Shown: positions 20,714 to 43,291 of the stretch, piece after piece
Layout of the letters: each line of letters starts with the position of its first letter
Position numbering within the stretch: position 1 is the stretch's first letter
Assembly: GCA_015066345.1 (NCBI GenBank)
Contig: SVOQ01000011.1
Location: 1-64,000, forward strand
Direction of reading: 5' to 3'
From: Oscillospiraceae bacterium
GTDB taxonomy: Bacteria > Bacillota > Clostridia > Oscillospirales > Acutalibacteraceae
Length of the DNA stretch: 64,000 nucleotides
Translations under genes and position numbers: made by a program
The notes under the pieces: model-generated
The model's input: only the letters and a program-made list of their open reading frames with translations
Told to the model about the DNA's origin: nothing
The model's database searches: none

Positions 20714-20770
<57 letters not shown>

Positions 20771-20791
<21 letters not shown>

Positions 20792-20978
20792 ACAATAAAG
20801 GATATCCGGTTTGGGTATCCTTTATTTTTTATTATTGTTTATTTTATGGGATTTGAACCACCTCGCCGAAGGCGAACATAATCGGGTGTTCGCGTAGCGA
20901 ATGATGGGCAGAGCCCATCAAATCCCATCTCCGCAACCAACAATAAAGGATATCCAGTTTGGGTATCCTTTATTTTTT
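20771..20978. repeat. 60-bp direct repeat (20771-20830 / 20919-20978) of tRNA-fMet 3' end plus terminator, flanking a hairpin array
   Basis: caaatcccatctccgcaaccaacaataaaggatatccRgtttgggtatcctttatttttt, 59/60 identical; inverted T-arm copy at 20846-20861. Confidence 0.92.
20797..20830 (+). terminator. tRNA-fMet terminator (first copy)
   Basis: AAAGGATAtCC...GGtATCCTTT + T-rich. Confidence 0.75.
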
Positions 20979-21108
20979 TGTGACAGAAATATGACAGTAT
21001 TATCTCAATTCTGTTACAAGTATTCACAATGGGCTTCTGTTAATGTAGTATTAATTTGTTAAAACTCTTAATTAAAATTGAAAAATCTGCAGCAGAAAGG
21101 AAATGATT

Positions 21109-29940: not shown

Positions 29941-30513
29941 TCATTTCTCCTCAACTATATTTAATTTATCACGGCATAATTCTTTGAAAAACTCAAAATT
30001 CTCTTCACCGCAAATATCAATGTGAAACATAAGTTGCCCCTGATATTCGTCAAACAATTTCTGTTTAGCCTTGGGGTTAGTTGTTTTTTCTATTTTTTCA
30101 ATAAGTTCATTAAAGGACTCGTAAATAAAACCTTTTATAATTTTATCCTTACGACTGAGAATATCATCCAACTGCTCCGTAGGGGTATGACCCTCGAAAC
30201 GCCAGTAAGGTTCAACCTTTTTAAGATTTTCGGTACTGGAAATCAAATCTTTTAAAGATTGAAAAAACACCTGCGGATGCTTTGTGGTATTAACATTATG
30301 AGCCGCATTTGAACCTATTTTTATATTTTTTACTACGAAGTTATTAGTTGCAGTTACCAATAACTCGTGTTTCAACATTTTCCTGGTAACGGGAATGGAA
30401 GAAACAATTTTTTGAAGTTCTATTCTTTCGTCCCTGTCATACTCACGGGGACGGAATACGTAACCCTGTTCTTCCTGTTTTTTCTTCTTTTTGAAAAGCA
30501 TATTAATATACAA
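29941..30513 (-). CDS. hypothetical protein
   Basis: 190 aa ORF, no recognised family; overlaps the upstream LRR gene end. Confidence 0.5.
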   Translation of the reverse strand: MYINMLFKKKKKQEEQGYVFRPREYDRDERIELQKIVSSIPVTRKMLKHELLVTATNNFVVKNIKIGSNAAHNVNTTKHPQVFFQSLKDLISSTENLKKVEPYWRFEGHTPTEQLDDILSRKDKIIKGFIYESFNELIEKIEKTTNPKAKQKLFDEYQGQLMFHIDICGEENFEFFKELCRDKLNIVEEK

Positions 30514-42906: not shown

Positions 42907-43009
42907 CCCTATTTCGTAGATTTAAACTTTATTATACACATTATACGATAAAACTGATTATATAACAACTACCAAATCAAAAGTTTTTAATATGGTCAAA
43001 TGGAGTGAT

Positions 43010-43183
43010 AATGAAATATTCGGCAATGCCGAACATGAAATAATCTTCGATTATGAAATATTTTGTCTGACGACAAAATGTGAAATAAAATTTGCCATAA
43101 TTATCATATGCGTAAGCATATTTCACACACGAAGTGTATTTCACAGCGTAGCTATTTCACTTGCCCGAAGGGCAAATTTCATT
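43010..43183. repeat. micro-hairpin array with TGAAATA / TATTTCA spacers
   Basis: Seven short stems with 3-4 nt loops: TTCGGC-AAT-GCCGAA, ATAATC-TTC-GATTAT, ATTTTGTC-TGAC-GACAAAAT, ATATGC-GTAA-GCATAT, ACAC-GAA-GTGT, AGC-GTA-GCT, TTGCCC-GAA-GGGCAA. Confidence 0.9.
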
Positions 43184-43184
43184 G

Positions 43185-43214
43185 AAAAAAGCAGTTCCGA
43201 AGAACTGCTTTTTT
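43185..43214 (-). terminator. tRNA-Arg terminator
   Basis: AAAAAAGCAGTTC-cgaa-GAACTGCTTTTTT. Confidence 0.85.
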
Positions 43215-43216
43215 CT

Positions 43217-43291
43217 TGGCACCCCCTGCGAGAATCGAACTCACATCTAATCCTTAGGAGGGATTTATTCTATCCATTGAACTAAGGAGGC
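43217..43291 (-). tRNA. tRNA-Arg(CCU)
   Basis: Reverse complement GCCTCCTTAGTTCAATGGATAGAATAAATCCCTCCTAAGGATTAGATGTGAGTTCGATTCTCGCAGGGGGTGCCA. Confidence 0.93.

Follow-up and report, generated by a model that had tools for sequence, protein, structure and literature searches.

A row of seven micro-hairpins beside a tRNA-Arg gene of an Oscillospiraceae bacterium is probably a solo, non-autonomous copy of a REPIN-like mobile hairpin array, for which we propose a four-helix-bundle protein as the partner. The copy spans approximately positions 43009–43215 on the minus strand of the window (the whole 64-kb stretch of DNA that was analyzed) and contains no protein gene, and its boundaries were set by reference to other copies and to array-free tRNA-Arg sites. 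A full element would comprise a longer hairpin (hairpin0), an inverted array of micro-hairpins joined by a constant heptamer, and sometimes a gene of the PF05635/TIGR02436 family. A sequence-only reading of the same DNA had suggested a non-autonomous mobile or structural repeat, which is now backed by dispersed copies, polymorphic orthologous sites, and compensatory stems.

Architecture and folding of the array

The seven stems described in that reading were all found where it had placed them: TTCGGCAATGCCGAA (TTCGGC-AAT-GCCGAA, 43019–43033), ATAATCTTCGATTAT (ATAATC-TTC-GATTAT, 43040–43054), ATTTTGTCTGACGACAAAAT (ATTTTGTC-TGAC-GACAAAAT, 43060–43079), ATATGCGTAAGCATAT (ATATGC-GTAA-GCATAT, 43106–43121), ACACGAAGTGT (ACAC-GAA-GTGT, 43127–43137), AGCGTAGCT (AGC-GTA-GCT, 43145–43153), and TTGCCCGAAGGGCAA (TTGCCC-GAA-GGGCAA, 43161–43175). 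The array is the densest micro-hairpin cluster and the sole inverted TGAAATA array in the window. The reported switch in spacer orientation is borne out, with TGAAATA present four times in the left half (43012, 43036, 43054, and 43081) and TATTTCA three times in the right half (43119, 43137, and 43153). Dyad symmetry, which had been ascribed to the whole block, holds for the spacers but not for the stems, whose sequences differ between the left and right halves.

An eighth, longer hairpin had been overlooked. Hairpin0 (43184–43215), with the perfect stem GAAAAAAGCAGTTC/GAACTGCTTTTTTC, is terminator-like in both directions and lies one base past the CCA of the tRNA-Arg(CCT) gene (43217–43291, minus strand; identified by ARAGORN and by the Rfam tRNA model), which would be the host gene of the insertion site. 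Because hairpin0 adjoins the array and appears to be part of the unit, we place the element at approximately 43009–43215. On the minus strand, starting next to tRNA-Arg, it consists of hairpin0, first arm, center, and second arm, in that order.

Folding of the stretch 42990–43215, which takes in hairpin0, had been proposed in the earlier reading; compared with dinucleotide shuffles, it gave z values of −6.5 as RNA and −8.9 as DNA, with none of the 200 shuffles equaling it in either form. A central stretch, AAATTTGCC (43088–43096), is complementary to GGCAAATTT (43171–43179) beside hairpin0, and this 9-bp long-range complement competes with the hairpin at 43161. The center of the element is likewise complementary to its own first spacer and stem in other copies, with sequences that vary by subfamily. 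The multi-branched rosette that had been envisaged is possible as one among several candidate folds.

Stem pairing was scored for each segment between spacers, since stem lengths differ between copies. Among 114 such segments, which represent 101 distinct sequences, a closing stem of at least 4 bp is present in 70%, versus 4% after shuffling. Stem density is 27.6 per kb in arrays versus 5.2 in flanks. Compensatory variation, on which the earlier reading had staked its case, is therefore present: stem sequences change and pairing is kept. The triloops are also polarized, with C(TNC)G in 30 of 48 left-hand and C(GNA)G in 13 of 35 right-hand cases. Since unusual stability is a property of GNA loops in DNA and of GNRA-type loops in RNA, the polarity cannot choose between the two.

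Relationship to Gut-1 RNA

The array had been judged unassignable to any named repeat family, which proved incorrect, as each half matches the Rfam family Gut-1 (RF01706). The first arm (43115–43184, minus strand) scores 66.7 bits against a gathering score of 50, which places the window copy in RF01706 on covariance-model grounds. The second, inverted arm (43009–43091, plus strand) is Gut-1-like, with 41.1 bits, below gathering, and an E value of 7.7e-7 in a 401-base search. Because the two arms match on opposite strands, RF01706 as named covers a single arm of a two-armed element. Gut-1 was put among likely noncoding RNAs in 2010 from human-gut samples only, and its noncoding-RNA status in that paper is an inference (PMC2864571). 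The restriction to the human gut is not upheld, given that we found array loci in Clostridia genomes from the guts of goat, sheep, and deer.

Gut-1 might still be a genuine trans-acting noncoding RNA gene, with the array as its transcribed gene or gene pair, and the match above the gathering score, the conservation of hairpins through compensatory change, and the classification in the discovery paper (PMC2864571) are all in keeping with this. We nevertheless regard it as unlikely. The arms are arranged head to head on opposite strands, a single genome can hold as many as 48 matches, occupancy of orthologous sites is polymorphic, and the array sits behind a terminator-like hairpin. In addition, at one locus that carries a protein gene (L048) the best promoter-like match (11/12) falls between the array and that gene, so the array need not share the transcript; at a second (L047), no promoter-like match was found in this interval. 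Gut-1 is probably not an sRNA gene. Literature searches on Gut-1, on mobile elements with four-helix-bundle proteins, and on tRNA-downstream palindromes, mostly of freely accessible papers, recovered no previous description of Gut-1 as a mobile element and no report linking it to a four-helix-bundle protein.

A dispersed family of arrays

The array is a dispersed repeat. A DNA search of its own genome gave E values of 1e-41, 3e-37, and 7e-25 at nonhomologous loci, with near full-length copies on contigs C31 and C34 and shorter ones on C41 and C34, all at unrelated sites. Searching the same genome with the Gut-1 model revealed further arm pairs on C5 and C47 together with remoter subfamilies. 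The search for similar arrays that had been recommended thus succeeded in the genome itself, and also in 40 of 60 related genomes, in which Gut-1 matches reach a maximum of 48 in one. Ruminant-gut Clostridia are the source of most of the loci that we named. Subfamilies are distinguished by their spacer (TGAAAT, TGATAT, TGAAGT, or GCGATAT), and the spacers of one element mostly change in concert, inverted in the second half. Copies L028, L030, and L032, which come from different families, are nearly identical, and one of the three adjoins a different tRNA gene. Viral contigs yielded 42 loci in a pattern search, which are pattern matches only.

Two further features were observed among these loci. 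A common tail resembling GAGAGTTCGAATTCATACGCAAAACTGCGAAAATATCTTTTTCG lies approximately 185 to 260 nucleotides from the array start in L028, L029, L032, L040, and L055, trailing both TGAAAT- and TGATAT-type arrays in different families. A long, one-directional micro-hairpin array with TGATGTT/TGAAGTT spacers (L078; G000, contig C18, from position 29978) immediately follows a coding region.

Linkage to a four-helix-bundle protein

PF05635 is the sole ORF family that recurs at a fixed position beside the arrays. A same-strand PF05635 ORF lies 208 to 249 nucleotides from the array start at 7 of 46 Gut-1 loci, of which 5 have a right flank too short for ORF presence to be judged, and two further arrays are located directly behind a PF05635 gene. 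The product is a PF05635/TIGR02436 four-helix-bundle protein (match to PDB 2rld, E value 3e-23) and belongs to the family of the S23p/IVP protein of 23S rRNA intervening sequences. It also has a weak match to DivGenRetAVD, and Avd and PF05635 are related (PMC10053308).

The linkage is seen from the side of the protein as well. Inspection of ten PF05635 loci in the own genome (one split into two matches) showed clear iterated inverted repeats beside nine; the one on C45 is doubtful. When genes were ascertained through PF05635, inverted 6-mer arrays (at least three occurrences per orientation in the gene flanks) accompanied 18 of 31, versus 36 of 600 control ORFs. PF05635 is present in 36 of 40 genomes with Gut-1 versus 7 of 20 without (p 2e-5, relatedness ignored); the four Gut-1 genomes with no PF05635 match are G010, G029, G032, and G050. 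In a protein tree, the genes adjoining hairpin arrays group together (28 rows, 26 of them labeled as hairpin; support 86/99), and the subclades follow the array word. The window copy has no PF05635 gene, and longer relatives on C34 and C5 of the same genome carry one. The designation as a non-autonomous repeat fits the window copy, but the protein gene of the longer copies elsewhere had been missed.

A separate class of PF05635 loci (L080–L085, L088–L091, L097, L106, L108, and L109) has tandem heptamer-like repeats (e.g., GTCAGTG, AATGCAG, and GAATAAT), mostly inverted on either side of the gene, and no hairpin arrays. At L094 (G011, contig C57), a heptamer-type element with a four-helix-bundle gene is situated between a repeated 5′ part of tRNA-Leu (approximately 38 bp) and the complete gene, as if the insertion had duplicated the first half of the tRNA.

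The small size, inverted-repeat symmetry, and dispersal of the array would also suit a classical MITE derived from an unrecognized autonomous parent, either a DDE transposon or another type, for which the four-helix-bundle gene is cargo or a hitchhiker. This explanation is improbable, since no other ORF family occupies a fixed position beside the arrays, the array word tracks PF05635 phylogeny, and no target-site duplication is seen at the compared sites. Our association counts for mobility enzymes covered the Y1 transposase (PF01797) and reverse transcriptase (RVT_1), and a hidden transposase of another family may exist.

Hairpin0 and the 3′ ends of tRNA and tmRNA genes

Arrays are located immediately 3′ of the CCA of tRNA and tmRNA genes and less often at the 3′ ends of other genes. 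The position of the block by tRNA-Arg had been noted correctly before, but the preference for tRNA/tmRNA 3′ ends had not. GAAAA, preceded by zero to two nucleotides, directly follows CCA in 58 of 61 array-bearing tRNA/tmRNA genes versus 11 of 113 others, a count that is partly ascertained in that the GTDB loci were fetched by a pattern containing TTTTTC; 7 of the 11 carry other array subfamilies. In the ssrA set, which was fetched independently of that pattern, GAAAA is present in 7 of 8 genes with an array versus 0 of 13 without.

The 45 nucleotides before the array were folded for 36 nonredundant copies and gave a median z of −4.5, versus approximately 0 at four control offsets; in 26 of the 36, the base of the hairpin borders the array. 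Two copies in the own genome (L072 and L073) share one sequence that runs from ACCA across hairpin0 into the array, and the DNA upstream of them differs. This identity, together with the confinement of GAAAA, means that hairpin0 is best seen as a component of the unit. The view that the hairpin is merely a pre-existing target is disfavored: few genes without an array have GAAAA after CCA, and hairpin0 travels with the array.

At one copy (L107), hairpin0 has as its first arm the terminal 3′ sequence of the host gene, which encodes a C-terminus (GTIEFE*) resembling that of GuaA. This clear case, and a weaker one (L037), hint that host sequence may have been copied in inverted orientation.

T-arm palindromes form a second family of elements at tRNA ends. 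Within the window (20714–20990), the 3′ end of a tRNA-Met gene and its terminator are repeated approximately 150 bp downstream, with a palindromic stretch (GGGATTTGAACCACCTCGCCGAAGGCGAACATAATCGG...) between them, and similar palindromes follow tRNA/tmRNA genes in G000 (contig C41), G006, G008, G014, G018, and G020.

Occupancy of orthologous sites

The 3′ flank of ssrA was compared across 19 genomes of one genus. Six have TGAAAT arrays (G007, G012, G013, G008, G014, and G018), with the protein gene following the array in the last three; two have TGATAT arrays (G019 and G015), three have TATATCATC arrays (G003, G009, and G017), one has a heptamer-type inverted repeat (G001), two have other T-arm palindromes (G011 and G020), and five have no array (G000, G004, G006, G016, and G021). 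The comparison of tRNA-Arg orthologs that the sequence-only reading had called for uncovered the same kind of presence/absence polymorphism across 15 genomes. Gut-1 arrays follow the counterpart of the window's tRNA-Arg(CCT) in four (G000, G005, G009, and G020), TATATCATC arrays in two (G013 and G018), and heptamer-type elements in three (G004, G006, and G007), and none is found in six (G001, G002, G012, G014, G015, and G019). In G002, the tRNA is identical to that of the window over 75 nucleotides and the array is absent. Occupancy of these sites is recurrent, and recurrent insertion predicts just such a pattern, with close relatives carrying unrelated elements at the same position. Neither clean excision nor a target-site duplication was found at the compared sites, where right boundaries are ragged and species-level divergence is often too high to align.

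Behind ssrA and tRNA-Arg, loci L319, L321, L325, L346, and L347 carry hairpin arrays of yet another family, with TATATCATC-like spacers.

Quasi-palindrome template switching would yield perfect stems of changing sequence without selection, and the arrays could accordingly be immobile, that is, fast-evolving structural or terminator/insulator regions after tRNA genes whose stems are upheld in this way. The persistence of orthologous arrays at a dCMP-deaminase locus in three genomes is compatible with such an origin. We consider it quite unlikely, however, because unrelated spacer families share one orthologous site, two loci of one genome carry an identical hairpin0 and array, and near-identical copies occur across families, including one by a different tRNA gene.

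A proposed mode of movement

A mobile hairpin array remains our preferred reading, and from it we infer transposition along the following lines. The unit would settle directly 3′ of a tRNA or tmRNA CCA and supply a terminator-like hairpin of its own, leaving the 3′ boundary of the host RNA gene intact. Binding of the four-helix-bundle protein to arrays of its own subfamily would most likely assist their movement as a single-stranded, hairpin-rich form, with the cutting and joining left to host enzymes. The proposed partner has no known catalytic domain that would account for breaking and joining. Solo arrays would be moved in trans, and the putative cognate gene for the window copy is at C34:133886–134185 of the same genome.

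Trans-mobilization might be attributed instead to a Y1 (RAYT-type) transposase acting on a REPIN, given that the palindrome-bearing arms form inverted pairs scattered through intergenic DNA and that the own genome has two PF01797 matches. This is very unlikely: neither of the two genes adjoins an array cluster, stem sequences are not conserved, PF01797 occurs in 17 of 40 genomes with Gut-1 versus 8 of 20 without (p 1), and array-rich genomes such as G059 (48 matches), G039 (33), and G017 (30) do without it. A Y1/RAYT partner was rejected for this want of association over 60 genomes.

That a group II intron or a diversity-generating reverse transcriptase drives retro-mobility in trans, with the four-helix-bundle protein in an Avd-like role, is hardly credible despite the relationship of Avd to PF05635, the weak DivGenRetAVD match, and the habit of group IIC introns of likewise inserting at the 3′ sides of terminator hairpins, because RVT_1 is absent from the 98%-complete own genome and occurs in 9 of 40 genomes with Gut-1 versus 5 of 20 others (p 1), counts that essentially refute a reverse transcriptase as a general requirement.

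Most of the compared genomes are draft assemblies and are related to each other. More tentatively, the arrays may exemplify a distinct class of mobile element in which a micro-hairpin array and a four-helix-bundle protein, with neither a transposase nor a reverse transcriptase of their own, target tRNA/tmRNA 3′ ends and carry or regenerate a terminator-like hairpin; 23S rRNA intervening sequences and the heptamer-repeat loci would then be branches of it. The mobile-array reading would reassign Gut-1, a curated noncoding-RNA family, to mobile DNA, and the widespread PF05635/S23p family, recognized for decades in 23S rRNA intervening sequences but with no assigned function, would gain a testable role as the partner of iterated repeats. 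The ssrA and tRNA-Arg 3′ ends, with empty and occupied alleles in one genus, offer natural test sites.

Comparison with known systems

Gut-1 (RF01706) shares both sequence and a three-hairpin structure with one arm of the window element, above the gathering score. It was described from human-gut metagenomes, however, whereas here it makes up half of an inverted, dispersed element with ties to tRNA 3′ ends as well as a protein family, and it is found in ruminant-gut Clostridia also.

Like REPIN/RAYT systems (BIMEs), the family has an inverted pair of palindromic arms, is dispersed extragenically, and has a partner protein gene beside some copies. In contrast, it conserves the spacer rather than the palindrome (101 distinct sequences among 114 segments), has three to four hairpins per arm and a preference for tRNA 3′ ends, and is associated with a four-helix-bundle protein and not with a Y1 transposase. 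The array resembles a REPIN, yet it lacks the conserved palindrome and the Y1 partner by which a REPIN is recognized.

The 23S rRNA intervening sequences (S23p/IVP) have in common with it the protein family, the small size, and an inverted structure, and in the intervening sequence of Coxiella, tandem heptamers precede the S23p gene (PMC4990558). The window element differs in lying beside tRNA-Arg, outside 23S rRNA, in its hairpin array and its own terminator-like hairpin, and in that solo copies are common. MITEs are likewise small, non-autonomous, dispersed inverted-repeat elements. In the present family, the sole ORF with a fixed position beside the arrays is PF05635 rather than a transposase sharing their ends, and target-site duplications were not recognized at junctions that are blurred by species-level divergence. 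Diversity-generating retroelements encode Avd, a relative of the four-helix-bundle protein, whereas the genome of the window has no reverse transcriptase and no recognizable template or variable repeat.
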